From: Branchiostoma floridae
Lineage: Eukaryota > Chordata > Leptocardii > Amphioxiformes > Branchiostomatidae
Reading direction: 5' to 3'
Assembly (NCBI RefSeq): GCF_000003815.2
Contig: NC_049993.1
Coordinates: 15,312,635 to 15,376,634 of the forward strand
Length of the DNA: 64,000 bases
Shown here: one piece after another, positions 18,235-53,073 of the stretch
Numbering within the stretch: the first letter of the stretch is position 1
Layout: every line of letters starts with the position of its first letter
The notes under the pieces: generated by a model
The model's database searches: none
What the model saw: the letters and a program-made list of their open reading frames with translations, nothing else
What the model was told of the DNA's origin: nothing
Translations under genes and position numbers: made by a program

Positions 18235-19222
18235 GTAAGTGAGAAACAAAACTTCCCAATGTATATATTTCACATTATATTTATTATATTCCACATATAT
18301 GGACAGTATATTTTTGCTCCCGTCATGTTCTGGACATGTGGTATGTAACGAGACTAATGCTACTGGACTGCCGTCATTTTTGGTGACCTTGAATATTCCT
18401 GAACAAGTTCACGAATATGGCAGTCCCTTGTCCTTATCCTCGTGACATGACAAATTCGTACCAAAATGGTACCTATGACAAAAATATTGCATCTCTTAAT
18501 TAGACTTATGCGGGGGAGTTTTTTTTATATCGAGGAAAATTCAATCTTAAATTACGCGCCTTTACGTGTAAAAAAATTCAAACGATACAGTTAGGCTTCG
18601 TGGATGTCATTGATATATCGAATCAACATATTTGTGTTGTGTATCGAGGCATAAGTATTTAGCCCCCTTTCAGATTTGTTCGAATCTGCTGTGGTGTTTT
18701 AGATACATATTTAGAAACAGGACTAGGTTGGCGTTTCTACCTTAATGTTGTTTTTTTAATTTATGCATACAATTTAACCTGCCAGAATAGTTAAACCATG
18801 CGAAGATCTGGTGAAAAAAACCCTCAACATTCAAGTACTACGAATTTAGTAAATATTAGATAGCACTCATGTCATATTTCTTAATCACACTGCATTTTAC
18901 AAAACTTGAAAACTTTTAAAATGCACATGGGATTCACCGTTACCATTTAATTTGTGTCAAGCAGAACATACAAAACCCAGAATCTCCTTCTCGCTCTCCA
19001 TTTTCTTTTGTAATTCTACAATAGAACAGATATCGCCACATAAAAAAAAAATAAATTCGCCTCGAAATTCTATCAAAATAAGATAAGAATGACACTAGAC
19101 GGGAGAATGTGGCCTTTCCAAGTAAAAACAAAAGGTTCTTGAGTTGATAACCGTCAGTCACACCCCAGAAAATAATGGTTTGTTCCAGGTCGAAACGCTT
19201 GAATGCACATAACTGCCCATTA

Positions 19223-19280
19223 TGTAAACAAATGCCCGTCCGGATGTTGACCATTCGGACGTTGACCTATACAAAGCTCA
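19223..19280 (+). promoter_or_regulatory. Promoter-proximal block of P450 gene 1
   Basis: TGTAAACA (forkhead/FOX consensus) at 19223-19230 is followed by aaatgcccgtccggatgttg and gttgacctatacaa just before the ATG. The block is shared with the second P450 gene (25159-25196), while the surrounding sequence is less alike. Tgacct is a nuclear-receptor half-site. Binding is inferred from motifs only, and no TATA box is evident. Confidence 0.4.
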
Positions 19281-19282
19281 AG

Positions 19283-23478: not shown

Positions 23479-24167
23479 GGCACTGCTTAGTTACACTGCC
23501 ATATGTTACCTTCTTATAAGATGATGTCTAACACGCATATAATTGCTTTGTGATTGGAAGAGATACTGACACTCATGTTTAGCCCCATCTGATTGCATGG
23601 AGGTTTTCTTATTATCCTATATTGTTTAGTTAGTAGAGTTTAACGATTTATTCTGTATTCACTTTTTTGTAGTTTATATTTGACCATACAAAAGTCACTG
23701 TACTTTTTGTCGTGTCAAAAAAGCTTGCTATAATACAAAGTTTTGTGGGCAATTTCCGACATTGTAAAATTCATAGACATCTATACAAGATGTATTATCC
23801 TGAAAATAGTCTGCTAATCAAACACGACTAAAATAGAAATGGGCAATTGATTAAACTCCATAGTAGTGCTATTCAGAAAAGAGAAACGGTATGGCTTAAG
23901 TCCAGGGAAAAGCATGTGTTTATACAGCATGTAATATTACTGGTATAACCGGTTAATTTGTGTTACTAATTATGGTTAGTGTGGTTTATATACGTGCTTA
24001 AATATCCTACTAATTTTTGCAGCAACGATATTGTGACTCAGACGCTACCTTGGCCATGTACGTAATAAGGGTAACAAACTTGTGTTGAGCAACAAACAAC
24101 GCACTCTACACTGTACCTGTATCTGTACGCTGGATAAGTCTGATTTTATGTCAGCATTCCTCTATAT

Positions 24168-24267
24168 NNNNNNNNNNNNNNNNNNNNNNNNNNNNNNNNN
24201 NNNNNNNNNNNNNNNNNNNNNNNNNNNNNNNNNNNNNNNNNNNNNNNNNNNNNNNNNNNNNNNNNNN
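24168..24267. other. Assembly gap of 100 N
   Basis: Exactly 100 undetermined bases, the usual placeholder for a gap of unknown size. It lies between the two P450 genes, beside a long GT repeat, so missing sequence or a collapsed repeat is possible. Confidence 0.99.
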
Positions 24268-24298
24268 GCTACGGCGGACCTCAGTGACACCCTCCCAT

Positions 24299-24483
24299 TG
24301 TGTGTGTGTATGTGTGTGTGTGTATGTTTGTGTATGTTTATGTGTGTGCAATTGTCTGTGTGCGCGCGTTTGTGTGTGCATTTATTCATATGTGTGTCTG
24401 TGTGCGCGTTGGTGTGTGCATGTATTCCTATGTGCGTCCGTGTGTCCGTGTGTATGAGTGTGCATCTCTGTGTGTGTGTGTGT

Positions 24484-24521
<38 letters not shown>

Positions 24522-24547
24522 GTGTGTGTGAGTGCGTGTGTGTGTAT
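24299..24547. repeat. (GT)n microsatellite next to gap
   Basis: About 250 bases of imperfect GT repeat directly after the gap. The repeat probably caused the assembly break. Confidence 0.95.
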
Positions 24548-25158
24548 TCTATAGACCCAGACATGTAATGGTCCTGTTTCGGGTACAGTACACACCGTGC
24601 CCATGTTGCTGTACAAAGATATTTATAATTTATTATTTTTGAAAACATTCTTGATTTATTTTGAGCAAACGTTAACCGCCATTACTGGACGGCATCACAG
24701 TCGTTTCCTCCTTCACCACTTCTCCCGTTCTCTGAACCACCAATGGCAGGTAGCGCTTTGGAAGATAATTCTTTTGTTTAGAAAAGGGGGTATCTGATCA
24801 GGTGAGCTAAATAGTTGTACTGCATCACACAAATCTGGGAATCATATTCTAATGAATTATAATGCTACCCGTTATCATTCATTTCTGTTTCAAGGAAGCA
24901 AAACCTCAAATCGTCGATCGCAACATTTATTTTTACTTTGTTTTACTAGGGTAGACATATATTGTTACGGAGAAAGATATACGACCTGGTTCGCTGTGAA
25001 ATTGTATTAATGTACAACTCGGAGCAAATTTTAGCAAGACTCAGTCCAGTGTCCTTTCGAATTTCTAGTAAAATATTCGGGTGAAACTGCAGTTATACCC
25101 CCAGAGGCCAATGGTTTCTTCCCGTAGGTGAAACGCTCGAATGCACATGACATCCCAG
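24548..25158. other. Upstream region of P450 gene 2, no gene supported
   Basis: No gene or clear transposon was recognised. The last part (about 25120-25196) is homologous to the upstream region of P450 gene 1. Confidence 0.5.
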
Positions 25159-25196
25159 TGTAAACAAATACCTGTCCGGACGTTGACCTTTACAAG
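25159..25196 (+). promoter_or_regulatory. Promoter-proximal block of P450 gene 2
   Basis: TGTAAACA at 25159-25166, then aaatacctgtccggacgttg and acctttacaag immediately before the ATG. It matches the block upstream of P450 gene 1 with few changes. The ttgaccttt element is an AAAGGTCA half-site read in reverse, of the type used by nuclear receptors such as HNF4. Confidence 0.4.
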
Positions 25197-28100
25197 ATGG
25201 CTGCCGCACAGTTGATAACGTCTTTAGTTGGCGAGAACGTGATCTTACAGACGGCTCTGGTCCTCTTACTGGTGTTCGTGGTGACTTCATGGTTCTTCAG
25301 CACACCTAAGAACCTTCCACCCGGTCCCAGAGGTTGGCCTGTCGCCGGTAATATCTTCTCTCTTGCGATGGTGAGCAAAAAAAAATACTTTAGCTAGCTT
25401 AAGATGCACTATGTAATATTAGGACAATACAAAAGTAGATTTCCCTACCATTTCTATACGTAGTAAGTTAAATCAACCCTATAGCATTGCAGGTCAATAT
25501 TTAGGGACAGAAGTTTGAACATCATACGAAAAATGATCTTTTGGAATCTCTACACACCCATATCCTAGGTGTTCACTGTTCCACGAGATGTGTCTCTGAA
25601 TCTTACCCAACAGTTGCTCAAGATTCCCGGCACCAAAGTTTTTAAAAGTTTTCTTCAATTTTGCCGCCATGCGGTAGTCTTGATCAGTATTGTATTGTCC
25701 AACTGAAAACATATACACACACAGACACACACACACATACACACACACAAACACACACACACACACACACACACAAACAAACACACACACATACACATGC
25801 ACAAAGAGACACACACACACGCATACACAAACACACACGCACACACAATTACAATACACACACACGCACAAACACACACATGCACGCACACACACACGCA
25901 CGCACACACACACACAAATTTAAACCACGAAACAAAGACTATACTTCTGAGCCACCGTATTTAACAGAACACCGGCTATATCTTTATCAAAAGGGCCACC
26001 GCTTTCTGACGATGACCGAATGGGCGAAGACGTACGGACCTGTCTACCGGATACAGCTGGGGAGGGAAACGATGATTGTGCTTTCCGGATATGACGTCAT
26101 ATACGAGGCTCTGGTAAAGAGAGGAGGAGATTTTTCAAGCAGACCAAATAATCCACTATTTAAGATCCTCAACCCGGAGAGGTTAGGTAAGAACCCGTAT
26201 AAATACTTTACGCTGGGTATGTTTACTTTGGCATTTTGAACAATACAGAGCCAATAGGCCTGTCATGGACTAAACTACGCATGCGCAACGTGATGTATTG
26301 TGGCTTATATGTTCAAAGTGAAGGTACTTGAGACATAAACAAAACAAATCTCGACAGGCTTTAGACTTAAGCTTATCTCAGACAAATCTCTAGTTAGAAT
26401 TTGCCTTTGCATTTTACCCACAGTGTATTTGGAGACACATAGTCAATTTTAATCGTGGACATGAGTAAGGTATTATTCAAAGGCGACGAGGTAGTTTTTG
26501 TTTTAATTACCACGACGTCTTATTAATTGTTATTGGGTCTTATTGAGACTCTTAAAGTAACAAAAATGACCTAAAGAAACGGCCACAAATTATGCAGCAG
26601 CTCCTATTATAATATGTTTTGTATCAAGTATATATGTAAATATGTCTATAAATTATGCAAAACTATAAATCTGTTATATATTTTGTTTGACCTCTTTCCT
26701 CATGGTATGCGGACCGATTTGATTTTTAATGAATAAACACCGGATAGAATGCGAACAATATAGCGTGCAATTTCACATGGACATCTAAAATATTATACAG
26801 GGTTTATACCGTTACGATGAATGAAAGAAAAATGATTCACTATTTGTATATTTTCAGGTATTATTACGGCCCCTTTCGGTACTCCATGGAAAGAGCACCG
26901 GAAATTTACCCTGATGTCGCTGAGAGAGTTCGGCTTCGGCAAGAGAAGTTTGGAGGGGAAGATTCTGGAGGAGTCAGTCGCTCTTCAAGCAGAGATAGAG
27001 AACATAGGATACAAACCGTTCGACATTAGCCGCATGGTCCAGAATGCCGTCACAAACGTGATCTGCTCTATTGTGTTCGGATGCAGGTAAGTTCGATATT
27101 AAAATAAGGGAAGACAATATATCTTTATATCGTTCAAATATATTTTAAGATTTATAAAATGCTGTGATGTACACTACTTGCTACAAGCTAAGGTACCAGT
27201 TCAACCATTTGTTTATTATCTCACTAGGTTCGAATATAACGATGACAAGTTCACACGCTTGATGGACGCCCTGGACCAAGGATTTGCCACCAATATTTTT
27301 GGCCAACTGGCCGTCTTTTTCCCCATCTTCCGACGTGTTCCAGGACTGGGACAGGGTGCACAAATTATAGTTGACGCAGTAGGTACCATTAAAGCCTATA
27401 TAAGAGAAGAAATGGACTCACACAAGAAGACATTCGATTCCAATGACATACGGGACCTTATCGACTCGTACGTCAGGGAAACCAAATCTCGCGAGAACGA
27501 CGACGAGACCACGTTTACTGACGAGTACACAGAAATAGTGCTGTTTGACTTATTCATCGCCGGGGCAGAAACCACCTCCACTACTCTGTACTGGGCGTTT
27601 CTGTACATGATTCTCAACCCGGACATCCAAGCAAAGGTACTTAATGATAAACAATTCTTCAGAACTAATAATAAACAAAGCCAAAAAACAAATTTATAGA
27701 AACAGGGGACGGTACTGACTTTCAGGCTTCTTTGATTCTCTACTGACGTCACGTTTCCAAACGGTCACGTGTTGGAATTGAAATTGTAATAACTCCCGAG
27801 GACGACTTAACTGCCAGTATTTCGCTTAGTGACTAAATCTGTTCTTAATTTTTTTCAACATTATTTTCTCTTTTCTTATGTTTTTTTATAGGTTCAGGTG
27901 GAGATCCACTCCGTGCTCGGACACGACAACCCGCCTTCCACCGCCCACCGTGCCCAGATGCCGTACACTGAGGCCGTCCTGACCGAGGTGGCTCGCATCG
28001 GCACCATCCTGCCGAATAGCGTCTTTCACGCCACGTCACGTGACATCAGTTTCCATGGATACCATATTCCTGAAGGCACCACGGTGCTGGTGAGACAATT

Positions 28101-30936: not shown

Positions 30937-30997
30937 ATGGCGGCTCGGGCAGAATACTTCCTTGTCGCTGTTGTACTTTACGTGATCACACCCACAG
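30937..30997 (+). other. Signal-peptide exon of the receptor kinase
   Basis: ATG in the context ttcaagATGG opens [20 protein letters not shown] and leaves one base (phase 1) at a CAG|GTATGG donor. Exon 2 begins with two bases completing a valine and reads VCAQQG, giving a good signal-peptidase site after VCAQ. The exact phase match across 1.6 kb of intron is why I chose this start over the in-frame sequence around 32524. Confidence 0.75.
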
Positions 30998-33900
30998 GTA
31001 TGGCGTTTTTGTCGTCTGTCTGATCTCAACGTGATTTTAAATATTCCAAATAGCCGTTAGTCAAGCAACTGGAAATTATTTTGGAAATGGTATATCCACA
31101 GTTACTTAGGTAACTGCCAGTTTGTCATGGGTCTGTAACATTCACCGACATTTCTGTACGGGCATGTGTGGTTGGATTTGTCATGAACAATATTGATTTT
31201 CCATCTAATATATGTCTTTTACATGTACTCTAAGATGTCAGTATAATAAACATAGTAAATGTTGCTTTAGATGTACCAGAAGAGGACCAAATTAATCTGT
31301 CACATTTCTTGTTCCAGGATAAATAATAATCTTGGTTTTAACTGTAACACAGTAATTGTTGAGAACAAAGGCTTCCCGAATTTGACATAATTTTTATACA
31401 TACCATGCCTGAATACACATATATTACAAAAGCGTGCTTTAAATTTCCTATTCCAAGACAAATATAATGGCAAGAAACATTGCAAAACACCTTTGTTTGC
31501 CTTTTATAACTACCTTTGATTTTCATTTTCAGAGGCAAAGATGATATTAGCTTTCAGTTCAATTGCACGATACTTGTGTCCATAACTTTAAGTATTGATG
31601 AACAAGAATTGTGTGGAAATTTTTAGAGCTAAGGGTAAATTGTGTGATCGGTGCAAATAATACGCGATGTAACCTTAGAAGTCTTTCTTTAATCAACATG
31701 TTAATCACGGACAAGGTTTCTGTAGGACTAAGAGAGGCGAGCGATGATTAGCTCGGTGATAAGTACATTATTTACAGGTATTTACAAACGCTAGGTAGTT
31801 TGCTGATGGAAAAAAGTCATGTCAATTGTACAGAATTGGCATTCAACTATTAGGAAAGTCAAGATGTTTTTTATTTAGGAAGACTTCCTTGTCGCGGAGC
31901 TTATATATACATTTTGGTTCATTATAATGTATGCATAAGCAAATTATTTGTTCACGGTTTAACTCCTGGCCACTTCAAGTGAAAAAAAAACTCTTAGTAA
32001 TTCATCCAACACAGTTACTATATATGTCGAGTATCATTAATCATGTAAAATTTCGACTAATATCGTGTGGCTGAAATAGCATGATCCAACGTTTCTCCGA
32101 TGACGCCATTTTGACTTAACCGCTCAACTGGTATAGTCTGCTTGCAAATTATTTACCTCCTTATCACAGGCAATATTATGTCACTTAAAGTAATGCTATT
32201 ATATTGGAAAAATATAGGATATAAGATAATTCTTTTACACAACCAGTATGCCCTGTTTACATTTCGATGCCTCTCGGATACCTACCCCAGAGCTTATAAC
32301 TGACCTCCTCTCGCCGCTATATTAAGTCAATATAGGAGGACGTATGGATCAAGGAGGCCGTCTGAAAAAAAAGATAGTCACCCCCAGTGATGAACAGGGA
32401 CATAGGGCTTAGTGGTCGGTAATAACTTACCGACGTTTGAAATTGTTTTCTTGTCGCAAATGCTCTGCCAGCACCGGCTGCACGAGGCAACGAGAAGCAG
32501 AAATCATTTTAGAAACTCTTTGAATGGTTTGTATAAGAGACATCAAAACTAAAATCCCTCTCCTATATTTGATATGTTATCCAGTGTGCGCTCAGCAAGG
32601 TATCCCATTGGCTCACCGGTTGCCCGGCGTATACCAACCCATTGGGGTACAGGATGACACAATCATCAAAGATGATCATGTGACAGCTTCATCCCAAGTA
32701 AACGGATCCGAGGCGTACAGGGGCCGCTTGAACGGTGATGGTGCATGGCAGCCGTCAGGACAAGGTACAAATGAGTTCCTGGCGGTGGATCTAATGTACA
32801 ATCGTTACATCTTTGGCATCCAAACCCAGGGACAGGGAAATGGCTACGTGGAGACCTACAGAATCCTATACCAGGTGGACAACACAACAGATCTAGTTGG
32901 GAGCGCAAAGGTAAGAGATAGATTATGCACATAACGTTATAGGGTTATAGATGCACATCTTTGCCCAGAGCGTATAAAGAACGCTAAAAACAAATAACAA
33001 AATATACATCAAATCCCTCTATAAATTTCTGCTGTACTTTGGATATATTGAGACGGTAAGGAAAATGTACAGAGTAAAAAGTATATTAAGTTATCATAAC
33101 AAACCACTACTAAAATGGAAGACATCCACATGCAGCTCTATTGCTTGTCATGGATTCTCTGGTGACATAAAAGTCTAGTCGCTAGGTGTTAGATCATTTG
33201 TAATGGTGACTAGGCGGTTTGGTAACCTTGGAATGTATTGTTTATTATCATAAAGATTATTAGGTAGATTGGATGATTTTTATAAAGACTAAAAAACTTA
33301 AAATCTGCTGGTCCGATGTGCTCCAACACACCTTTCCTTAGATCTTCAGCGGCAACAGTGATAACGAAACTATCGTCCAACAAAACTTCACCTCTTACAT
33401 CTACGCCCGGTATATCCACGTCAACCCGCAAACTTTCTCTGGCGCTCCACGCCTGAGGATAGAGTTACTCGGAGTGGATGGTAAGTAGTAAGCACGACAT
33501 TCACGAGAGTAGACGGTACTAAGTCGAATTGATTTTAGAAACAATGGTACTTTGCTGAACAATTAGGATATGGGTGGCCTGAGACTGACTCGTTGCATTA
33601 TCCTTAGTCAAGAAATACTAGGTTCACTTTGCATCAACATGGTCTTCACCAAGCCTGCACAGGTGATAATGTTGTTTAAGGTGCAGACTGTTGTTACCAT
33701 AATCTTGTAGGAAGGAAAATTTCTTATATAGATCATACTTCAGATTAATAGATTATGCATCTGACATAGAATTCATTTCCAATTTTCCAGAACTACCAAC
33801 AACGATCTCCCCGGTAACGACTCCTGTCGTCACAACTCTTTCAACACCTTCTTCAACACAACCACAAAGTACCACAGAGGCTGAGACGTCATCTGGCGTG

Positions 33901-36900
33901 TACCAACCCATTGGGATACAGGATGACACAATCATCTCTGATGCTCTGATGACAGCTACATCCCAAGTAAGCGGATCCGAGGCGTACAGGGGCCGCTTGA
34001 ACGGTGATGGTGCATGGCAGCCGTCAGGACAAGGTACTGAGTTCCTGGCGGTGGATCTAGAGTACAAACGTTACATCTTTGGCATCCAGACCCAGGGACA
34101 GGAAAATGGCTACGTGGAGACCTACAGGATCATATACCAGGTGGACAACACAACGGGTCTAGTTGGGTACTCGGAAGATGGTGGGAGCGCCAAGGTAGGG
34201 GCATACCTATGCAGATATAAGGTTATAGATATATGGTTATATATACATGTATGTATGTAAGGTTATAGAACATCTTTGCCCACAACTTGAAAAGAACACT
34301 ATAAAAAGATTCTATAAAATAGAACTTAACAAAATATACCTTCTTGAGTTTCTGCTGTACAGATATCTTGAGTGAGACTATAGGTAAAATGTACAGAGTG
34401 AAAACTATAATTGGTTATCATAACAAACCACAACTACACTAGAAAACATCTGCACGCAGCTCAATTGCTAGTCGTGGATTCTGTAATGACGTAATCTTAG
34501 CCGAGTCGCTAGGTGTGAGCTCGTTTGTAATGTTGACTAGGCATTTTGGTAGCTCTGGGATGTATGGTTTGTTATCACAGAGACAATAAGGTACATTGGA
34601 TGATTTTTATTTAGTATAAAACATCTAAAAAATCCAATGGTCTAATGTGCTACAACATTCCTGTCCTCAGATCTTTAGCGGCAACAGCGACAACGAAACT
34701 ATCGTCCAACATAACTTCACCTCGTACATCTACGCCCGGTATATCCTCGTCATTCCGCAAACTTTCTCCGGCGCTCCACGACTGAGGATAGAGTTACTTG
34801 GAGTGGATGGTAAGTAGTAAACACGACAGTCGTGATAGTGACGATACTAAGAGGAATTGATTTTAGAAGATATTGGTACTTTGCGGAATAATTGTGATAC
34901 AGGTGGCCTGAGGATGACCCGTCAAGAAATACAAGGTTCACTTTACATCCAGAATGGTACATGCTGCTTTCTCTGCATAGCACTCAGCATTCTGGAAAGA
35001 TTATGGGGGTTAAACACACATCACTACCAGCGGACCAGCCCCCTGCTGTAGTGAAGTGTGCAAATGTGTGGTCCAAGGGCTACAGAAATGAAGATGGGTG
35101 CAGCCCCTACGCATCTGAAAGATGTAAGGGCAACTTTAACTTAACTATTTTTGCATCAAAATAGACTTCAACGAGCCTGCAGAGGTGATTATGTTGCTTA
35201 TGGTGCCGAATGCAGTTATTAAACTCTTGTAGGAAGGATCATATGTTGTTTTCAAAGTATCATATTTCAGATGGATAAATAATGCATCTAAGATTTATTT
35301 GCAATCTTCTAGAACTACCAACAACAATCTCCCCGGTAACGACTCCTCTCGTCACCACTCTTTCAACACCCTCTTCAACACAACCACAAAGTACCACAGC
35401 GAAGTCATCTGGCGTGTACCAACCAATAGGTGTAGAAGACAACAGCATTATCACAATTGGTCAAATGACATCCTCATCTGAAGTAACCGGATCCGAGGCG
35501 TACAGGGGCCGCTTGAACGGTGATGGTGCATGGGAGCCGACAGGACAAGGTACAAATGAATTCCTGGCGGTGGATCTACAGCACAATCGTTACATCTTTG
35601 GCATCCAGACCCAGGGACAGGGAGATGGCTACGTGGAGACCTACAGGATCATATACCAGGTGGACAACACATCGGATCTAGTTCTGTACTCGGAAGATGG
35701 TGGGAACGCCAAGGTAAGAGCCTATAAATGCAAACATATGGTTATAGATATAGTGTTATATGCTCAACACCTAGTCTATAAAGAACACTAGAAAGGAAAA
35801 CTTAACAAATTATACACCAAGGCTCTCTTTGACTTTTTACTGTACGTCATTAGGTCCGCAGATATGTTTATAAGACATACAATAAAGATACAGCCATTTA
35901 TTATTATTCTCTTGTCACACACCGTCAGACGGCCAACTTAACTTCCCCCTGACTCTCTCCAGAAGTCTCTCACTTAACTCCTGCTCTCGTGGTTGACCCC
36001 CCTCTGGGCCTTTTATTCCACATACTTGTTTTTTTTTTACTCAACACACAGCATACGGACATCTTGTTTGAGGCGGTAAGTAAAATGTATAGAGTAAAAG
36101 CCATAATTAGTTAGCATAACACACCACAACTACACTGGAAGAAATTTTGCACGGAACTCAATTCCAAGTCGTAGATTCTGTACCTAAAATCTGATGGTCC
36201 GATGTGCTCCAACATTCCTGTCCTCAGATCTTCAGCGGCAACAGCGACAACGAAACTATTGTCCAACAAAACTTCACCTCGTACATCTACGCCCGGTATA
36301 TCCTCGTCAACCCGCAAACGTGGTCCGGTGCTCCACGACTGAGGATAGAGTTACTTGGAGTGGATGGTAGGTAGTGTACACGGCATTCACGACAGATAAG
36401 ATACTAAGAGGAATTGATTTTGGAAAAAAAACATTGGTACTTTGCCGAAGAATTAGAATATTTGTGGCCTGAGGGTGACCCACTACATTGTCTTTAGTAG
36501 AAATAAATACTTGGATTACTTTGCTACATGGTCTTCACCGATCCTGCAGTGCTAATAATGTTGCTTATGATACTGACTGCTATATGCGCTGTTATCATAC
36601 TCTAGTAGGAAGGTTTAGATATTTTCTTATGTAGATATTACTTCAGATTAACAAATTTTGCATCTGATATGGAATTCATTTGCAATCTTCCAGAACTACC
36701 AACAACAATCTCCCCGATAACGACTGCACTCGTCACAACCCTTTCAACACCCTCTTCAACACAACCACAAAGTACCACAGAGGCTGCGGCGTCATCTGCC
36801 GTGTACCAACCCATTGGGGTACAGGACGCTACAATCATCCCAGATGCTCTCATGTCAGCTTCATCCCAAGTAAACGGATCCGAGGCGTACAGGGGCCGCT

Positions 36901-39900
36901 TGAACGGTGATGGTGCATGGCAGCCGTCAGAACAAGGTACAAATGAGTTCCTGGCGGTGAATCTACAGTACAAACGTTACATCTTTGGCATCCAGACCCA
37001 GGGACAGGGAGATGGCTACGTGGAGACCTACAGGATCATATACCAGGTGGACAACACAACGGGTCTAGTTGGGTACTCGGAAGATGGTGGGAGCGCCAAG
37101 GTAGGGGCATACATATGCAGATATAAGGTTATAGATATATGGTTATATGTACATGTATGTATGTAAGGTTATAGTCTTATAGAACATCTTTGCCCACAAC
37201 TTGAAAAGAACACTATAAAAAGATTCTATAAAATAGAACTTAACAAAATATACCTTCTTGAGTTTCTGCTGTACAGATATCTTGAGTGAGACTATAGGTA
37301 AAATGTACAGAGTGAAAACTATAATTGGTTATCATAACAAACCACAACTACACTAGAAAACATCTGAACGCAGCTCAATTGCTAGTCGTGATTTCTGTAA
37401 TGACATAATTTTAGCCGAGTCGATAGGTGTGAGCTCGTTTGTAATGTGGACTAGGCATTTTGGTAACTCTGGGATGTATGGTTTGTTATCACAGAGACTA
37501 TAAGTTATCTTGGATGATTTTTATTTAGTATGAAATAACTAAAAAATCCAATGGTCTAATGTGCTGCAACATTCCTGTCCTTAGATCTTTAGCGGCAACA
37601 GCGACAACGAAACTATCGTCCAACATAACTTCACCTCGTACATCTACGCCCGGTATATCCTCGTAAACCCGCAAACTTTCTCCGGCGCCCCACGACTGAG
37701 GATAGAGTTACTTGGAGTGGATGGTAAGTAGTAAACACGACATTCGCGATAGTGAAGGTACTACTAAGAGAAAATTGATTTTAGAAAAAAATTACTTTGC
37801 TGAAGATTTAGGACACAGGTGGTCTGAGGATGACACGCTAAATTGTTCTTAGTCAAGAAATTCTAGGTTCACTTTGTATGCCGCTTTGTCTGCTTGGCAC
37901 TAAGCATTTGGAAAAAATTATGAAGGTTAAACACACATCACTGCCAGCAGACCAGCCCCCTGCTGTAGTGAATTGCACAAATGTGTGGCCCAAGGGCTAC
38001 AGAAATGGAGATGGGTGCAGCCCCTACGCATCTGAAAGATGTAAGGGCAACTTTAACTTAACTATTTTTGCATCAAAATAGACTTCAACGAGCCTGCAGA
38101 GGTGATTATGTTGCTTATGGTGCCGACTGCAGTTAATAAACTCTTGTAGGAAGGATCATATGTTGTTTTCAAAGGATCATATTTCAGATGGATAAATTAT
38201 GCATCTGACATAAGATTTATTTACAATCTTCTAGAACTACCAACAACAATCTCCCCGGTAACGACTCCTCTCGTCACCACTCTTTCAACACCCTCTTCAA
38301 CACAACCACAAAGTACCACAGCGAAGTCATCTGGCGTGTACCAACCAATAGGTGTAGAAGACAACAGCATTATCAGAAATGGTCAAATGACATCCTCATC
38401 TGAAGTAACCGGATCCGAGGCGTACAGGGGCCGCTTGAACGGTGATGGTGCATGGCAGCCGTCAGAACAAGGTACAAATGAGTTCCTGGCGGTGAATCTA
38501 CAGTACAAACGTTACATCTTTGGCATCCAGACCCAGGGACAGGGAAGTGGCTACGTGGAGACCTACAGGATCATATACCAGGTGGACAACACAACGGGTC
38601 TAGTTGGGTACTCGGAAGATGGTGGGAGCGCCAAGGTAGGGGCATACATATGCAGATATAAGGTTATAGATATATGGTTATATGTACATGTATGTATGTA
38701 AGGTTATAGTCTTATAGAACATCTTTGCCCACAACTTGAAAAGAACACTATAAAAAGATTCTATAAAATAGAACTTAACAAAATATACCTTCTTGAGTTT
38801 CTGCTGTACAGATATCTTGAGTGAGACTATAGGTAAAATGTACAGAGTGAAAACTATAATTGGTTATCATAACAAACCACAACTACACTAGAAAACATCT
38901 GCACGCAGCTCAATTGCTAGTCGTGATTTCTGTAATGACATAATTTTAGCCAAGTCGCTAGGTGTGAGCTCGTTTGTAATGTTGACTAGGCATTTTGGTA
39001 GCTTTGGGACGTATGGTTTGTTATCACAGAGAAAATAAGCTATATTGGATGATTTTTATTTAGTATAAAATAACTAAAAAATCCAATGGTCTAATGTGCT
39101 ACAACATTCCTGTCCTCAGATCTTTAGCGGCAACAGCGACAACGAAACTATCGTCCAACAAAACTTCACCTCGTACATCTACGCCCGGTATATCCTCGTC
39201 AACCCGCAAACTTTCTACGGCGCTCCACGACTAAGGATAGAGTTACTTGGAGTGGATGGTAAGTAGTAAACACGACATTCACGACAGTGACGATACCAAA
39301 ACGAAATTTATATTAGAAAATAGTGGTACTTTGCGGGAAAATTTTGATACAGGTGGCCTGAGGATGATCTGCTACATAGTTGTTAGTCAAGAAACCATAC
39401 GTTCACTTTGCGTTAAAAACTGCACATGCTACTTTCTCTGGGTTAAACACCGGACCAGCCAGCTGCTGTTGGGAATTGCGCAAATGTGTAGCCCAAAAGC
39501 TACAGGAATGGAGATGAGAGAAGCCCCTACACATCTGCACAGATGTACCGGCAACTTTAACTTAACTAGCTTTGCATCGACATGGTCTTTTTACCGAGCC
39601 TGCAGAGGTGATAATGCTGCTTTGTTGCCGACTGCTATTATCGTACTCTTGTAGGAAGGATTAGATTTTTTTTTCTTTTGAAGATCATACTTCAGATTAA
39701 TAAATTATGCACCTAACAAAGAATCCATTTACTCTTTTCCAGAGCTACCAACAACAATCTCCCCGTTAAGAACTACACTAGTCACAACTCTTTCAACGTC
39801 GTCATCAACACAACAACAACGTACCACGGAGGCTGAGACGTCATCTGACGTGTACCAACCCATCGGGGTACAGGACGATACAATCATCCCAGATGATCTG

Positions 39901-42900
39901 ATGACAGCTTCATCCCAAGTAACCGGATCCGAGGCGTACAGGGGCCGCTTGAACGGTGATGGTGCATGGCAGCCGTCAGGACAAGGTACAAATGAGTTCC
40001 TGGCTGTAAGTTTAATGTACAATCACTACATCTTTGGCATCCAGACCCAGGGACAGGGAGATGGCTACGTGGAGACCTACAGGATCATATACCAGGTGGA
40101 CAACGGAACAGATCTAGTTCTGTACTCGGAAGATGGTGGTGATGCCAAGGTAAATCTTAAATTCAGAATTGAAAATTGTTTTAATGTCCTTGCATGTGTT
40201 TTCGATGAATTTGAAATACCTTATAGTCACATAGCCTTATGGTCACCTATAGCTTATTGTGCATTGTTGACAAACTTTTATAATAAATTACACTTATGCA
40301 GGACTTCCTAGATAACCATTTCAAACTAGCATGTAACCTCTACTTATAGAAATGAATTTAGCTTATAATCAATACAAGTTTGTTTTCCTTTCAGATTTTC
40401 ACAGGCAACAGCGACAACAAAAATATTGTTCAACAAAACTTCACTAGCTACATCTATGCCAGGCATATTCTAGTGAACCCACAAACTTTTTCTGGAGCCC
40501 CAAGGTTACGGATAGAACTACTTGGAGTTGATGGTGAGTAGCGAAATAACGTTTGACTTATGCATAAAATCATTAAGATATAAATATGTCTTTACATAAT
40601 TTACTCGTAAATTTGCTTGAATTAAGTTAGGAATATGTATTTCTAAAAGTGTTATTAGAATTGTCAACCAAAAAAATTACTATCCCAAGAGTGAGCTACA
40701 TGTGCTACTTGAATTACCAATGCATTTCCATACAGAGTTACCTACAACAAGCACTCCTCCCATGTCCTGGACAAGTACACAGAGCGCCTCAACCTCAGCA
40801 GTTAGTCTGGCGTCACAGACCAAAACTGGAGGGCAAAATTCAAGCACCAGTACAACAGTACCAGGTAAAAATGTGTTTAAAATGTGACAGTGATAATTAT
40901 TTTTAAAGATAAGAAATGCTAACCGTATACCAAACGTGTTATATGATTTTCTATTTGACAGTACGGTATCACGAAGCTTAAACGTACCCCCCCCCCATGT
41001 ACAGCTACACAAACTGCAGCAAAAACAGCATCAACTCAGACGTCACAGGCTAGAGGTCTACATTCAAGCAGCAGTGCAACAGCAAATGGTAATTACACAA
41101 TATTGTTATCTAAAAAGGAACTTCTAATTTGTTCGGAAAAATTACTAACAGTACACTAATTGTTTTCTCGTTGAACAACATATTCATAGACTATTCTACT
41201 TTTTTATATAACCAAGAAGCTAAAAATGTACAATTCCCCTTAGAGCTAGCTACAACAAGCTCTGTGACAACAGATTTGTCCTGGACAACTTCACAAAATG
41301 CAACAATATCAGCATCGAGTCAGACGTCACAGACTGGGACTGATGATCAACATCCAAGGAGCAGTACAACATCACAAGGTAATTACATAAATATTGCTCT
41401 TTGGGTCTTGAAAAAAAATCTGCAGTTCTTATTTGTCAAAAAATAAATGTTTCCTTGCGGAAGAAACAATTTATGTGATTTGTTTTTACTTGACAATATG
41501 ATATCGAGAAGCTAAAACTTACTTAACAAGCTTTTGAAAAATAAAAATCTTCCTTTGGTTCGTCAAAAACTGAAAATGCTGGAACCAAATTCGCTGTCGA
41601 AGTTTCATTGTCATTTTAGTTTGTTAAACACGTATATTTCAGACAGATTCGACAAGTAATATACGTCCCGGTCCTGAACGTACGTTTTTCAGAGCTTTGC
41701 TCTAGGCTGCAAACATGGATGTACTCCGAATGTCTTTGTATTAGCAGTACGTAGTCTACTGACGCAACTACAGCAGAGGTTCATAGTCATTGGTATTTCA
41801 AGGGCACACTTTTCACGTCTTTTTTGCTCTCTGCAGGCAAATCGTCAAACGTAATAAATGTAGGAGCTGCAGCTGGGAGCGGATGTGTCGTGTTCCTTAT
41901 ATTGATATTGGTCGCGGTAATTCTATTTATGCGCAGGTAAGGATTCATCTTTTCGAAGCACATGCTATTTCTGCTGAACTTTAAATGTTCTCTATGATAC
42001 ATTTGCTATTATAATACATGTTTTGATGAGGTTTTGACGATTGACTGACTAAGGAGCTCTAAAGCTGAGTGTTAAAAGTCCTCTATCTTATTTGACAGAC
42101 GAAGAAAGAAACGAGATCAAGCATCCTCAGTTGAAGAGACACCATCTAACTCGACCGGATATGTCAATGCGTCATTTGTAGCGATAGCAGGTAATTCAGA
42201 AGTAAACTTCTGCATATACCAGCTGAATATTGCTATTGTGCTATCTCTCATGTTATTAGTGATACGTTTACGTTGGCGGGATATTATTATAGTATAAATA
42301 GCAAGCGAATTACATAAAATGCTTTTGATTTAGATTTACATTTATTTACATAGTAAAACCACGAAGCTTAAATGTTATCGGGTACCAACACATTCCTGCA
42401 ATTGCACTTCTCATAGAATACACAGTGTGTGTTTTTTTTCCAGAACAAACAAGGCACAGAGTGCAAGATGACGCTAATCCAGTACACGTTGCGGCCAGAG
42501 CTACGAATCGAATGGCAAATCATTTCATGAGATCACTCAATGAGAATGACAATGAGGTTTGTGCTCTGCTAACGGTAGACTATGTCAAGAATTTAAAAAC
42601 CTTGAAGTAACTTTTTTTTTTCAAGTCACTTTTCTGACATTTAATTTTTTTTTTTGCATGGGCTGGGAAATGGTTGAAATAAGTTGTGTTTGTTGCAAAC
42701 GATGCTTTTCAAGTTAAATTGTGTTCTACCTACTTATACCACAGCTTTTACAACACATTCCCCTGAGGATCATGGCAGTGAATAACAGGGAGCTGACCTG
42801 GAATGACATATCTCTTACCTCAAAGCTGCTTGGAGAAGGACACTTTGGAGAAGTACGGAAAGGAACAATCATCGTAAATGGGGAAAGGATTCCATCTGCC

Positions 42901-45900
42901 ATCAAAATACTGAAAAGTATGCAAAACAATTCTCAAATGACGACTGTATAAGCCGTGGAATTACGCTTGATTAATCACAGTAGGTAATATAAGAGACAAA
43001 ATCATCAACCTCACAGACATACGTGAGCGATTACAATATTAATCGTGTCGTTGATCATTTCCAAACCTCCCTTTAGGTGGTGCTGATGATGCTAGCAGGC
43101 AGGACTTTCAACAAGAGGTGGACATCATGCGTCATGTTGGGTATCATCCTAACATCGTCAACCTGCTGGGAGTCTGTATCTATCAGGGTGAGTCTAGATC
43201 ATTACCAACAATTCTTTATCTTTAGCTTTATCAAGAAAGTAGGGCCACGGTTTTAGACGTATGTGTGAATAATTCTAGAAACCGTCTTTTAACCATTTAG
43301 TAACTAGTTCCATATTTCTATGGCTATCAGTCTATCTTGTTCACGGAGTTAAAAAATTCTCGCGAGAGTAGCTAGAACAAGGTCAAGACTCGCATGGATC
43401 TTCTGCCCTCCCCCCCATCCGCCCCCTCTCTCTGCCTCATTGCAGAGTAGGGGTAAATGGGACTTGGAAATGTATCCTCATGGTGGGTGGATTAATTTGT
43501 AGGAAGGGATGCAGGCTACGAATTCCACCTTTAAGATAAATTCATAACCACATTAAGTACAAACCAATGAGTGATATTACTCAAACATCTTGGATTCAGG
43601 TCAACAGTACATGGCCCTTGAAATGGCAGGAAATGGCGATCTACTGAAGTTTTTAAGGAAGTCTCGAGTGCTGGAAGCGGCAAGTTTAACTTACGTCAAC
43701 CGGCCGAACTTCGGCGGCGGCCGCACGATGTCCACCCTTTCGCCTGTCCAGCTATTGCGTATTGCCTGTGACGTAGCAACTGGAATGGACCACCTGTCGT
43801 CTAAGCAGGTAATTCTGTCAGTTTGTGATATATCTGTTTTAAAGTTTGAATAAGAAAATAAAATCACAATTCATGGCAGGGCTTGGGAACAATTATTGCA
43901 TTATTTTGGGTTGCCCAAGAGGTCGAGAAGAGATTCTTGTAGACTTGTGAAATATTGAAAAAATGACATTACCATATATTTCCATACTTCCTTTGTTTTA
44001 ATTAAGGATTGGCAGACCGCACAAAAGCGATTTGATTTAAAAGTAGTGCACTTTATTTTATCTAACAAATGACATGCACCAAAATGCAGTTACTGACAAG
44101 CAACTGTAAACGTCTGACCGTCCGAAATAATATGAATTTGCTTGATCTTGATCAACATCTTTGTTGGCGTATCTTATTACCTGGATGTCTAATATTCATC
44201 GACGTAACAAATAAAATGTTCACAAAACAATTGAAAAAATATTGTTTTTATTCGTCAGGTGATCCACCGTGACCTGGCAGCCAGGAATGTTCTCCTCACA
44301 GACAGCCTGATCGCTAAAGTAGCCGACTTTGGACTGTCACGTGGGGAGGGCATCTATGAACAGACTTCAAAGGTAACGTTATTCCCAGTAACGGTAGCCA
44401 TGTTAAATTTCCGGGGTCATCCGGGTTAATTGACTATGCAAAAGTATGTATTCTCTCTGAAAACCTGTATCGCAATGTAGATATACCATTTTCGGGTTTT
44501 AATTGCACCACTCAAAGGTGCAACGCTGCAGTCAATCAAACTTGAACTGTAAATGTCAACAAAAAATATGGACCTACTCAACTTATTTCCAACACTTGAC
44601 ATCACAGAAGCAGAGCATTGCTTATTCCCTTTCTAAGGTTGTATTTTCACGGTTACGGTTAATGTTAGTAATTACAGTTTGACTTTGATTCAGAAAAAGT
44701 TGAATGAACGATGTACTTGGAGTAACTTTCAGTCTTCCACATTACAGAAAGCGATCCCTTTCCGATCTACTGCACTGGAGGCACTGACTAGAAGGATCTA
44801 CACAACAAAGAGTGACGTGTAAGTTTTAAACCATTCAGCGTTTTATGCAATCAAAACATGTATTCAATTCAATATTTCATTGCAATTATTAGTATTTGTA
44901 TACTTTCTAGAGTCGATAATACTCAGTTGTTACTTTTTTTCCACAGATGGTCTTTCGGAATTCTACTCTGGGAGATTGTCACCATTGGTGAGAATAAGAA
45001 CGCCATTCACTGCAACAAATTCAATTTCAACCATACATTAAGGAATGCTAATACATATTCTTATACGAAATAAGTGCTTAACGTTTTACGAATGCATAAA
45101 GTGAGCAATGATACCAACAACCCTTAAGATTGCATAGATCGCATTATACTTATGGGTTTCAACATAAGAGTTTCTCGTTTGGGTACACAGATAGCCATCG
45201 ATGAGACAGTTAAACTGATTTAACTATAACAGATTAAAAGACCTTCTTTCATCCTTATTAGGAGGAACTCCTTACTGCGGAATGAAATCCAGAACAATCC
45301 TGGGTCGGCTGCGTGAAGGCTACAGGCTACCCAAACCCAGGAACTGTGAGGCAGACATGTATGTTTGTTCTTATGTTGTCGCTTATTTTACGTACATAGA
45401 AAACTTGCTTTTCGTTCATTGTACAACTCATCTTTCTGCCACATTTCTATCTTGACAGCTTTACATATTTTGAAATATAGAATAAATGATAAAATATAGC
45501 TATATTTTTTAACTAAATCTATTATCATTGCTCTGACGAAATCTACAAAAGTATTCTTTTCATATATTTTTTTAAAAATGTCGATTACACCACGTTTTAC
45601 AACCGGTACAAATATATAAACAAATATCTTAATGTGCATATGTTTTCTAGGTACCAACTGATGCTGTTGTGCTGGAAAACACATCCGGAGGACAGGCCGT
45701 CGTTTACCGACCTGGCTGAACAGCTAGAGATCATGATTGAGGACAAACACGTAAGTATTCATTAGTAAGACATTAACGCTAGTTCACCTTTATCCGTATG
45801 GTAACCGATATGCGTTGCTTTTTAAAAAGAGGATGTTTAGGCACATCAAGTCGACATTTGGTAGTTTTAAATTGCAATATCCTAAAAATGTTGCAACTTG

Positions 45901-46651
45901 AAACTAACGTCCTTCGGTGTGATATCCCCAAATACCCTGTTTCAAAAAGTAACGGATATAGGTTACCCTACGGATAAAGGTGAAGTAGCGTTACATAAGG
46001 TTGGTAAAATACTTGGTCACTGAGTTCTTTATTAAGAGTTCTATAACTGGGCGATGCAGTCACAGTCCAGTGCACTGTAAACCAGTCAGTATAACCCTGA
46101 AGAAGATGAAAGATGGTCATCGGAACGTTGGCTCGTAATATATTTCATGGTTCCCTATAAAGAACTTTGTGACCAGGTTAGTATATAGGTTGATGTTTGA
46201 TGTTTGATCTGGTGAATCAGGTATCTTCAATGCCTTTTTTAATAAAGGTCCCAGAATCAAAACCTTCTTTTATTCGTATTCGGCCAGAGACTATGTGGTT
46301 GAAACCCTCTCTCCCTTAAAGTAGTTTGTCAGTGCTATTATAACATCATCCTTATCACAGTCATAAAAAATGTCTAAACGATATAAAGCTCTTACATCTA
46401 GCTTATGTCATGAAATGTGCTAAAATTGATTGAGATTGAAATTGGAACTTATTTAAAATGGACGAGATTTGGAATACCTTTCGGTTAGTAAGGGAGTTTC
46501 CTAACCTTGTACACCTTTGGCAAAAAACTACACAACATATTGAAGACTTTAATACTTATTTTACACCTTCTTCCAGAGCTACATGAATGTTGACAAAGAT
46601 GATGATTTCGAGTATGAGATGGTCGACTCCAGTGATAGTGACGTGGCCTGA
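30937..46651 (+). CDS. Receptor tyrosine kinase with six discoidin-like domains
   Basis: Twenty-eight exons, every junction in frame, 4884 coding bases, 1627 residues. Exons: 30937-30997, 32585-32910, 33342-33480, 33791-34194, 34671-34809, 35313-35713, 36228-36366, 36694-37100, 37585-37723, 38235-38635, 39120-39258, 39743-40149, 40395-40533, 40736-40864, 41005-41088, 41244-41378, 41837-41936, 42099-42190, 42444-42556, 42745-42916, 43077-43187, 43600-43808, 44259-44372, 44748-44818, 44947-44987, 45262-45358, 45651-45750, 46577-46651. Order: signal peptide (about 1-24), six F5/8 type C-like domains, mucin-like stalk, membrane span (about 1206-1228), basic stop-transfer RRRKKR, kinase (about 1316-1600), acidic tail. 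Kinase residues present: GEGHFG (1328-1333), Lys1352, HRDLAARN (from 1465), DFG (1485-1487). It would transmit an extracellular binding event by tyrosine phosphorylation at the plasma membrane. Known discoidin receptors (DDR1/2) have a single such domain plus one discoidin-like domain, so this is a different architecture. The ligand is unknown. Confidence 0.9.
32585..40533 (+). repeat. Six tandem two-exon discoidin modules
   Basis: The modules are exon pairs 32585/33342, 33791/34671, 35313/36228, 36694/37585, 38235/39120 and 39743/40395 (first bases). In every module the first exon starts in phase 1 (after the signal exon or the previous module), ends in phase 0 after a lysine codon, and is followed by a 139-base exon ending in phase 1. 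Modules start 1.2-1.5 kb apart. Recurrent landmarks are [48 protein letters not shown] and [15 protein letters not shown]. This matches the F5/8 C pattern of an RLN...W, a TQG strand, an ARYI strand and a final RIELLG. The usual pair of terminal cysteines is absent in all six. The first exon of modules 2-6 begins with a Thr/Ser/Pro-rich linker of about 25-35 residues. Sequons NET, NFT and, in some copies, NGS suggest heavy glycosylation. Confidence 0.88.
40736..41378 (+). other. Mucin-like stalk exons
   Basis: Three exons (40736-40864, 41005-41088, 41244-41378), each entered and left in phase 1, encode about 116 residues rich in Ser, Thr and Gln. They share the pattern A/E-L/T-x-T-T-S...W-T-S/T...S-Q-T-S-Q. 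They look like duplicates of one small cassette forming an O-glycosylated stalk between the discoidin domains and the membrane. Confidence 0.75.
42745..45750 (+). other. Tyrosine kinase domain of the receptor
   Basis: Exons 20-27. The nucleotide-binding loop GEGHFGEV, the lysine in SAIK, the helix-C glutamate in QEVDIM, the catalytic loop [11 protein letters not shown], and [12 protein letters not shown] with GGTPY are all in place. HRDLAARN is the tyrosine-kinase form of the loop. A long insert with [10 protein letters not shown] lies in the kinase-insert position of split-type receptor kinases. The end of the activation segment reads [11 protein letters not shown] where most tyrosine kinases have P-V-K-W-M-A-P-E. 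The ALE form also occurs in Met and RYK, but loss of the tryptophan is unusual. One activation-loop tyrosine, Tyr1495, is visible. Confidence 0.88.
45774..45993. mobile_element. Short non-autonomous DNA transposon (family A, copy 3)
   Basis: Best-preserved copy. The left end is taacgctagttcacctttat and the right end ataaaggtgaagtagcgtta, near-perfect inverted repeats. A direct repeat, cat, lies at 45771-45773 and 45994-45996, possibly a 3-base target duplication. It sits in the last intron of the receptor kinase gene. Confidence 0.85.
46006..46190. mobile_element. Small element with inverted ends and hammerhead-like core
   Basis: cttggtcactgagttcttta near 46010 and taaagaactttgtgaccagg near 46165 form imperfect inverted repeats. 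Between them, ctgaaga at 46097-46103 followed by a gatg...catc stem and ggaacgtt resembles a decayed hammerhead ribozyme core (consensus CUGANGA, stem, GAAAC, GUH). Probably a remnant of a retroelement. Confidence 0.35.
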
Positions 46652-51040: not shown

Positions 51041-53073
51041 ATGAGTGACTGTGGCGGCGGTGGGGGTGACTGTGGAGGGGGTGGCGGTTGCGACAGTGGC
51101 GGAGGGGGTGGCGGTGTCGGTGGGGGCTGCGACAGTGGCGGAGGGGGTGTCGGTGTCGGAGGGGGCTGCGACAGTGGCGGCGGGGGTGGGGGTTATAGCG
51201 GTGGGGGCTGTGACAGTGGCGGAGGAGGGTTCGATAGTGGTGGGGGCCATGACAGTGGCGGAGGGGGTTTCGACAGTGGCGGGGGATTTAGTGGAGGCTT
51301 CGTCAACAGTTCAGGAAGGCCCATTAACTCACGCAGCCGTCTTGGAACAACACCTAATCTACCGAGTTCTCGCAATAGCGAAATTAGACTAGGAACCGCA
51401 GCGGGATGTGCCGTCATTGCAATCTGTACCGGTATATTCGTTTTGGTACCTGCTTGTTTCTTAGTTTGGCTATGGGTCGACTTAGGCTTGGTTTCGATCG
51501 GGGCTTTTGGACCGGTGTGTTTCTGCTTTAGTTTTTTAATGATCGGCTCGGGAAGTTACTACCTTTGTAGACGGTCGAAAAACCATAGAAACCAGCCGAA
51601 CGTACAAACGGTCACATCCGGAGTCCCCCTGACGGATGAACCAGGTACTGCACAAGCCGCCATGACGTATCCAACAGCAGACATTGACACGCCGGGAAAA
51701 CGTGCAGTTCAATCCGCGTCCGCAGGGTGGTCTCCAATTTCCGGGACCCATTATCAACAGTACCCTTCATACCCCACAAGGTAACAATTATGTTATTCAC
51801 ATACAAATATGTATGTTTTAAGTATTGGACTAAAAGTAAAATGCTTATATAAAGCATTCGACTGAAGACAGGAATATAAAGCAAGTGTAACTTTGTAATA
51901 TTTGGGTACAAAGTAACTCTTAAAGTGCTAGAAATCAATGTAGTAAGATACGCCAAATTCCATTTACACATGCAACTGGATATGATTTTAAAAACGAAAA
52001 TAAAACGAACAGCTGTAACACCTGCGGTGACCTTTCAATACTGACCTGTACGTCGATATCCGGTACATGTAAAGCTGTTACGTTGACCGTACCTTTATAT
52101 CAATTACAAAGCAGGGGTGTTGACGTATATGTTTATATCCGGTACACACCCAGCGTGTTGACCTGTATGTTTCTATCCGGTACACAACCGGAATGTTGAC
52201 CTGTATGTTTGTATCCAGTACACAACGGAATGTTGACCTGTATGTTTGTATCCAGTACACAACGGAATGTTGACCTGTATGTTTGTATCCGGTACATACC
52301 CGGCGTGTTAGCCTTTATGTATATATCCGGTACACAACCGGCGTGTTAGCCTTTATATTTATACAGTACACAACCGGCGTGTTAGCCTTTATGTAGTTAT
52401 CCGGTACATAACCTGCATGTAAGACTTTATGTAGTTATCCGGTACACAACCGGTGTGTTATATGCTTTGATACGGTACATAGTCCGTGAGTAGAGGTTAC
52501 CTGATTTGCTTGCGTTCTTAAATCCTGTCTTTCTTCCATCACAGGTTGGCACCAGGGTATACACCTTCTGGATGGCTACATCAACCAACGGGTGCACAAC
52601 CACCCCCTCCGGGACGACACCTACCAACGGACGAGAAACCACCAGCTCCGAGACTACACCTACCAACGGGCGAGAAGCCACCACCTCCGTACGCGGGACT
52701 ATACCTACCAACGGGGGCACAACCACCTCCTCCGGGACGACACCTACCAACGTGGGCACAACCACCTCCTCCGGGACTACACCTACCAACGGGGGCACAA
52801 CCACCTCCTCTGGGACTACACCTACCAACGGGGGCACAACCACCTCCTCTGGGACTACACCTACCAACGGGGGCACGACCACCTCCTCCGGGACTACTCC
52901 TACCAACGGGGTTACAACCACCCCCTCCGGGACTACACCTACCAACGGGCGCACAACCACCACCTCCGGGACTACACCTACCAACGGGCGCACAACCACC
53001 ACCTCCGGGACTACACCTACCAACGGGCGCACAACCACCACCTCCGGGACTACACCTACCAACAGGCAATTAG
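51041..53073 (+). CDS. Gly/Cys-rich two-pass membrane protein with Pro-rich repeats
   Basis: Two exons, 51041-51780 and 52545-53073, joined through a split AG|G codon, give 422 residues. The start is fixed by an in-frame TAA nine bases upstream. Residues 1-90 are almost pure Gly with spaced Cys, Asp and Ser. Two hydrophobic segments follow (about 122-146 and 153-176), rich in cysteine and separated by a very short turn, then a basic RRSK stretch. The tail holds about twelve 13-residue repeats of the type HLPTGAQPPPPGL, encoded by a 39-base tandem repeat. One repeat contains PPPPY, a PPxY motif of the kind bound by WW domains. There is no signal peptide. The family is not recognised. Retention of the intron would end the protein at residue 247 with SYPTR. 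The final codons and stop lie at the junction with an antisense LINE fragment. Relics of the first membrane segment recur in the downstream array. Confidence 0.7.
52075..52485. repeat. 37-bp minisatellite in the intron of the membrane-protein gene
   Basis: About ten units of the form gtgttgacctgtatgtttgt then atccggtacacaacc, with later units changing gacctg to agcctt. It occupies most of the single intron, up to about 60 bases before the acceptor. Confidence 0.85.
52590..53062 (+). repeat. 39-bp coding tandem repeat
   Basis: Roughly twelve copies of a unit around ctacacctaccaacgggggc then acaaccacctcctccggga. Because the unit is a multiple of three and lacks stops, several frames on both strands stay open. 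The splice phase selects the Pro-rich frame. The repeat breaks off at ccaac|aggcaattag, where LINE-derived sequence begins. Confidence 0.9.

Follow-up and report, generated by a model that had tools for sequence, protein, structure and literature searches.

A lancelet receptor kinase gene pairing a Tie-like kinase with a predicted array of six cysteine-free F5/8 type C modules

What kind of tyrosine kinase stands beneath an array of discoidin-like domains in a lancelet? The question is raised by a locus of Branchiostoma floridae at positions 30937–46651 (+ strand) of a 64-kb window (the whole stretch of DNA that was analysed, part of contig C15), where an initial annotation had sketched a receptor tyrosine kinase with six F5/8 type C (F5/8C) domains. 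The discoidin domain receptors (DDRs) DDR1 and DDR2 likewise carry F5/8C outside and a tyrosine kinase inside. Our analysis points elsewhere: the gene is likely to encode a Tie-family kinase whose ectodomain has been replaced by a recently amplified, cysteine-free F5/8C array on a mucin-like stalk.

Gene model and F5/8C modules

We rebuilt the gene independently from reading frames and splice sites. The reconstruction has 28 exons in one frame, from a start codon at 30937 to a single stop codon ending at 46651; all introns (27/27) are GT–AG, phases fit throughout, and the coding sequence of 4,884 nt specifies 1,627 amino acids. In order, the protein comprises an N-terminal leader (a putative signal peptide, judged by inspection of the N-terminus), six F5/8C modules, a Ser/Thr-rich stalk, a membrane span and a complete tyrosine kinase. 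The Pfam family F5_F8_type_C matches the whole chain at E 4.1e-90 and, with the modules searched singly, all six above the curated cut-off (E 5.8e-18 to 9.2e-14; 52.1–65.7 bits versus 28.2); the initial annotation had named a misfit of the modules to F5/8C as one of two results that would count against it. PK_Tyr_Ser-Thr covers residues 1324–1595 (E 5.6e-82), and a MBTPS1_3rd row at residues 601–634 stays under its Pfam cut-off. The chain holds seven cysteines (residues 22, 1213, 1389, 1449, 1543, 1566 and 1577); there is therefore none from residue 23 to the membrane, and modules, linkers and stalk are all cysteine-free, the terminal pair being missing from each of the six modules. The stalk spans 116 residues with 49% Ser+Thr, the top three hydropathy windows begin at 1208–1210 (the membrane span), and of the 21 N-glycosylation sequons in residues 1–1205 the modules contain 19. 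The initial annotation is borne out on the in-frame exon chain, the six cysteine-free domains, the mucin-like stalk, the membrane span and the complete kinase. Two analyses that it had proposed, a module profile search and a kinase tree, were both run: the modules match, as above, and the kinase joins TIE2, as described below. Chance open reading frames are disfavoured by splice-site conservation at two related loci (C3 and C15a, below) and by kinase ratios of nonsynonymous to synonymous change (dN/dS) of 0.10–0.21.

Among solved proteins, the module comes closest to the factor V and VIII C domains, neuropilin b1 and lactadherin C2 (E 1.2e-24 to 1.3e-9 among the best 60 of 66 PDB matches, chains with two such domains summing both). 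These are the closest sequences, but the terminal cysteine pair is missing here. The first top loop of the modules is short and polar, with a sequon in modules 1 and 4; compared with that of factor VIII C2 it is shorter and without aromatic residues. Factors V and VIII carry aromatic spikes that insert into membranes, and with so short and polar a loop, insertion through such spikes is unlikely for the modules. For the DDRs, the available part of one article describes a DS domain with a strictly conserved terminal disulphide and a collagen trench of Trp52, Arg105–Glu113 and Cys73–Cys177 (PMC4332414). In an alignment with DDR2, its residues are replaced as follows in 6/6 modules: Trp52 by Val, Cys73 by Gln or Glu, Arg105 by Gln, Met174–Asn175 by Gly-Ala, Cys177 by Arg and the two terminal cysteines by Val; Ile112–Glu113 falls in a gap. 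Since the trench residues are missing, collagen binding in the DDR manner is unlikely. As for a DS-like second domain, the Pfam scan returned no further domain, such domains being hard to recognise by sequence.

Affiliation of the kinase

We compared the kinase domain with 177,635 distinct PDB sequences and considered the best 60 of 2,432 matches. Human TIE2 is the best full-length match among these (297.7 bits), with a lead of about 80 bits over the next full-length families (FGFR4, 218; FGFR1, 214.6; RET, 208.2 bits). PDB chain 9p9u (EGFR), the first row for the window kinase and in the tail alignment search, was set aside because it is a tandem of two kinases, so that both copies add to its score (121.6 bits for the best stretch). 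With TIE2 as query it is again the first non-TIE2 row (320.5 bits, summed copies), and the best non-Tie single kinase is FGFR3 (261 bits). A Met-like kinase was rejected as well, the window kinase scoring 144 bits against MET and 264 against TIE2.

A tree of 20 kinases (six Tie-like lancelet genes, eight other lancelet kinases and six human ones) joins the six genes of this genome to TIE2 with support 98/96, and places human DDR1 elsewhere, paired with the lancelet kinase L011 (93/90). L011 (C15:21375986–21376774, − strand) is a candidate true DDR, both branches of that pair being long; two other lancelet kinases, L009 and L010 (a pair on C16), adjoin the Tie group (83/76). In an all-against-all table of shortened kinases, each of the six genes scores higher with TIE2 than with any other kinase that is not one of the six (245–275 bits; FGFR1, 168–189).

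The tail of the protein bears on the same question. An 18-residue stretch of it aligns gap-free to TIE2's KTYVNTTLYEKFTYAGID, the alignment with TIE2 chain 2oo8 running through the tail, and its Tyr-x-Asn aligns with that of TIE2, which in the Tie tail is a docking site. A Tie-type tail exon is present in five of the six Tie-like genes; for C5b, none was seen in the stretch examined. The tail alignment supports the Tie placing. Also common to the window kinase and TIE2 (TEK) are the motif GGTPYCGM and a 15-residue stretch. By these comparisons the kinase is Tie-like rather than DDR-like, a placing that goes beyond the initial annotation.

Canonical Tie receptors carry Ig, three Tie-type EGF and FN3 domains outside the cell. 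Here only F5/8C rises above the Pfam cut-off, and Ig, the three Tie-type EGF domains and FN3 were not found in the chain; the gene is therefore a Tie-kinase relative and not a canonical Tie receptor. Compared with TIE2, it differs in its six F5/8C modules and mucin stalk and in the loss of the RWMA Trp; the Tie receptors also include vertebrate TIE1 and SpTie1/2 of the sea urchin, the latter named as a Tie orthologue in the available part of PMC12113024.

Related loci and growth of the array

A second locus, C3:5143016–5162968 (− strand), holds in the same order a leader, two F5/8C modules, one of the three stalk exons, the membrane-span and both juxtamembrane exons, K1–K8 and the tail. Its homologous exon ends show AG at 15/17 acceptors and GT at 16/17 donors; those of C15a show AG at 11/11 and GT at 10/10. 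We compared 24 of the window gene's 27 introns at E up to 1e-6: 11/24 align with C3, and 0/24 with C15a, C15c, C5a or C5b. Since this arrangement recurs at C3, on a different contig and with introns that can be aligned, ectodomain and kinase very probably belong to one gene; the second locus also speaks against separate mRNAs for the two, the other result that the initial annotation had named as counting against it. Kinase dS is 0.31 against C3 and 0.52 against C15a, and by dS and introns C3 appears to be the nearest relative of the window gene. Kinase dN/dS for the window gene is 0.21 against C3, 0.10 against C15a, 0.12 against C15c and 0.15 against each of C5a and C5b.

The genome search for kinases scored 134 of 621 candidates and found at least six multi-exon Tie-like loci: the window gene, C3 and four more with the same kinase exon chain, namely C15a (15,194,844–15,202,144, about 140 kb upstream of the window gene), C15c (at 5.86 Mb), and two loci very similar to each other, C5a and C5b. 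Their ectodomains were surveyed with Pfam as single open reading frames 2–15 kb upstream of the kinase, giving partial models and not full genes. Sushi was found for C15a (E 2.4e-11), EGF_CA for C5a and C5b (E 3.4e-6 and 1.6e-6, barely above the cut-off), and Ig (E 1.6e-8) and TSP1 (E 5e-15), both past their cut-offs, for C15c. When the three EGF exons of C15c are joined, three PDB sequences fall below E 1e-9, all of them TIE2 ectodomains (best 5.8e-27); C15c is thus the nearly usual Tie among the loci examined. Two further Ig-like open reading frames lie upstream of C15c. These partial models suggest a small family that couples one kinase with several different ectodomains. Many other kinase matches, on C12, C8, C7, C10, C1, C4 and C18, lie in clusters, each within one open frame of roughly 900 residues upwards that looks intronless.

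The module has relatives of its own. Scoring 150 of 359 candidates, we found at least 117 module matches in the genome, the closest clustering at C15:417–445 kb (C15b), where one B exon is 100% and A exons are up to 90% identical in protein; more copies lie on C4 and C2. The C15b frames, which look like two tandem genes at C15:417000–445300, have long Thr/Ser-rich linkers and a membrane span. They have the linker and the A/B exon split in common with the window gene and differ in having another membrane span and no kinase match nearby (no kinase exon match was found within 410–460 kb). Of the array's 11 introns, nine can be aligned with C15b (70–83% identity). Such close module copies in apparently kinase-less frames of the same genome were not part of the initial annotation.

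Within the array, the A–B introns of modules 2, 4 and 5 are 94–97% identical (96–97% in one of two comparisons), and those of modules 1, 3 and 6 stand apart, that of module 6 being without an alignable counterpart; every module differs from the others in DNA. In protein, module 5 is a mosaic, its first half like module 3 and its second half like module 4, and its introns follow suit: the preceding one is 92% identical to that before module 3, the inner one 97% to that of module 4. Because of the near-identical introns and the mosaic, we infer that the array grew by recent unequal exchange, of which module 5 would be the expected trace.

Alternatives, proposed working and meaning

Could the gene be a derived DDR with extra discoidin domains? 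F5/8C with a tyrosine kinase is the DDR combination, and the available part of PMC8662651 names FA58C together with DDR. Yet DDRs are missing from the best 60 of 2,432 kinase matches and from the best 60 of 66 module matches in the PDB, human DDR1 groups with L011 in the tree, and both the collagen-trench residues and the two disulphides are missing in 6/6 modules; the number of modules and the kinase group further separate the gene from DDR1 and DDR2. Kinase ranking, tree and residue comparison all disfavour DDR descent, which we regard as exceedingly improbable, in agreement with the contrast to the DDRs drawn in the initial annotation. It is very unlikely, too, that the model wrongly joins the gene of an F5/8C mucin lacking a kinase to an adjoining gene for a Tie kinase that has a small ectodomain itself. 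Kinase-less F5/8C frames do exist at C15:417–445 kb, the model rests on genomic sequence, and novel-looking lancelet architectures can be gene-prediction errors, as the available parts of two articles relate (PMC6071037, PMC4967905). Against this, C3 has leader, modules, stalk, membrane span, juxtamembrane and kinase exons in order and with alignable introns on another contig, its membrane-span exon is 75% identical to that of the window gene (which has no match in C15b), and the exon phases fit throughout.

The number of modules invites a different doubt, namely that the count of six reflects an accident of the assembly or of one allele and normally differs. The likeness of the A–B introns of modules 2, 4 and 5, the mosaic module 5 and the two modules of C3 speak for this; modules 1, 3 and 6 have distinct A–B introns and no module pair is DNA-identical, and we think such an accident unlikely. 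The gene might also be real and its kinase weak or inactive, making it a decoy or adhesion receptor. Trp-Met-Ala stands ahead of the A-x-E motif in 6/6 human rows, and its Trp is absent from 6/6 Tie-like lancelet kinases (FRSTALEAL in four, FRCTAIEAL in two). The Gly-rich loop, Lys, helix C Glu, HRD, DFG and activation-loop Tyr, the features of an active protein tyrosine kinase, are nevertheless all in place in the window kinase, dN/dS is 0.10–0.21, and C15c, with its Tie-type EGF triplet, shows the same Trp change; we judge a weak or dead kinase quite improbable.

Several observations weigh against the reading of the locus as a Tie-family kinase with a replaced ectodomain. The gene model comes from genomic sequence, and from a single genome. 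The tree holds one Tie from outside this genome and no clade test, flags seven long end branches (EGFR, MET, DDR1, L011, RET, FGFR1 and TIE2) and warns that MET may be falsely joined. In the reciprocal direction the margin is small: among the shortened kinases TIE2 scores 276 bits with C15c, 267 with C3 and 265 with the window kinase versus 257 with FGFR1, and its scores with C5b (252), C5a (248) and C15a (245) fall under FGFR1's. For C3 the protein tree gives C15a as partner (97/91), but by introns and dS its partner is the window gene. C3 may itself be damaged, since its K1 has no 5' part and a stop stands directly ahead of the conserved part, adjoining an intron of about 10 kb (C3:5146894–5157341). 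At C15c, four of seven ectodomain open reading frames, an FN3-like one included, are without a Pfam family, and the EGF row is under the cut-off. The missing activation-segment Trp (FRSTALEAL) might lower activity, and ligand and signalling, as set out next, are what we infer.

The six F5/8C modules and the stalk stand in place of the Ig, EGF and FN3 domains of Tie. Angiopoietin is bound in the known way through an Ig domain, of which none is present here. The array may bind a repeated ligand (glycans, matrix or a microbial surface) through many weak contacts made together; such multivalent binding would cluster the receptor, and clustering would lead the kinase to phosphorylate itself on the conserved activation-loop Tyr of GIYEQ. 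Phosphorylated Tyr-x-Asn binds the Grb2 SH2 domain, and the Tyr-x-Asn motifs of exons 18 and 28 could then recruit Grb2-type SH2 adaptors. The juxtamembrane motif reads GYVNA in the window gene, GYVNT in C15a and GYANA in C3.

Table 1. Exons of the gene as reconstructed here, in window coordinates
Exon	Position	Strand	Content and remarks
1	30937..30997	+	start codon; N-terminal leader, a putative signal peptide judged by inspection; 80% identity to an exon of C3
2 (M1A)	32585..32910	+	module 1 first part, Pfam; 85% in C3
3 (M1B)	33342..33480	+	module 1 second part, Pfam
4 (M2A)	33791..34194	+	T/S-rich linker and module 2 first part, Pfam
5 (M2B)	34671..34809	+	module 2, Pfam
6 (M3A)	35313..35713	+	linker and module 3, Pfam
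7 (M3B)	36228..36366	+	module 3, Pfam
8 (M4A)	36694..37100	+	linker and module 4, Pfam
9 (M4B)	37585..37723	+	module 4, Pfam
10 (M5A)	38235..38635	+	linker and module 5; 5' part M3-like, 3' part M4-like
11 (M5B)	39120..39258	+	module 5, Pfam
12 (M6A)	39743..40149	+	linker and module 6, Pfam
13 (M6B)	40395..40533	+	module 6; nucleotide identity 76–80% to the other five B exons
14 (S1)	40736..40864	+	mucin-like stalk; 59% in C3
15 (S2)	41005..41088	+	mucin-like stalk; no C3 match found
16 (S3)	41244..41378	+	mucin-like stalk; no C3 match found
17 (TM)	41837..41936	+	membrane span; 75% in C3
18 (JM1)	42099..42190	+	juxtamembrane, Tyr-x-Asn motif GYVNA
19 (JM2)	42444..42556	+	juxtamembrane; donor gtttgt (C3 gtttgc, C15a gtttgg)
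20 (K1)	42745..42916	+	kinase: Gly-rich loop, AIK lysine
21 (K2)	43077..43187	+	kinase: helix C Glu
22 (K3)	43600..43808	+	kinase: FLRKSRVLE, common to TIE2
23 (K4)	44259..44372	+	kinase: HRDLAARN, DFG
24 (K5)	44748..44818	+	kinase: activation segment end, FRSTALEAL
25 (K6)	44947..44987	+	kinase
26 (K7)	45262..45358	+	kinase
27 (K8)	45651..45750	+	kinase, last part
28 (C)	46577..46651	+	C-tail SYMNV...FEYEMVD, aligned with TIE2 tail; stop codon

Elsewhere in the window, frames at 19151–27696 contain segments that by their motifs look like cytochrome P450, and a stretch of Ns lies near 24.2 kb. At 52576–53063, a 39-base minisatellite of 12.4 copies has an open frame on the + strand that reads as a Thr/Ser-rich repeat. 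Inside the intron between K8 and the tail exon, 45774–45993 is a partly self-inverted repeat about 71–73% alike to stretches at 5.4 and 10.1 kb. An Rfam scan of the window gave no match at the gathering threshold, and ARAGORN (bacterial code) found no tRNA.

Tie receptors are usually seen as a conserved Ig–EGF–FN3 pair tied to angiopoietin and vessels. In the available portions of the open-access literature on amphioxus kinases, Tie and domain shuffling (including PMC5237311, PMC11521371 and PMC5146956), no F5/8C Tie is described, an earlier listing being possible in the survey of D'Aniello et al. 2008, which was beyond reach; no open-access full text joining tyrosine kinase, F5 8 type C and amphioxus was found. 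The locus shows what looks like recent exon-module amplification, an old signalling engine of Tie type apparently fitted with a new sensor of clotting-factor or discoidin type, and it allows one to test directly what a change of sensor means for a receptor kinase. A Tie with a TIE2-type EGF triplet, and the same kinase beside other ectodomains, would show Tie signalling re-aimed at new ligands. We suggest, tentatively and with considerable doubt, that the Tie kinase may be an interchangeable engine in lancelets, coupled to F5/8C, Sushi and EGF ectodomains, with fast variation of the array between animals, in receptors that sense patterns and are perhaps immune. If true, a pattern-sensing family would have been derived from a receptor that serves blood vessels in vertebrates.

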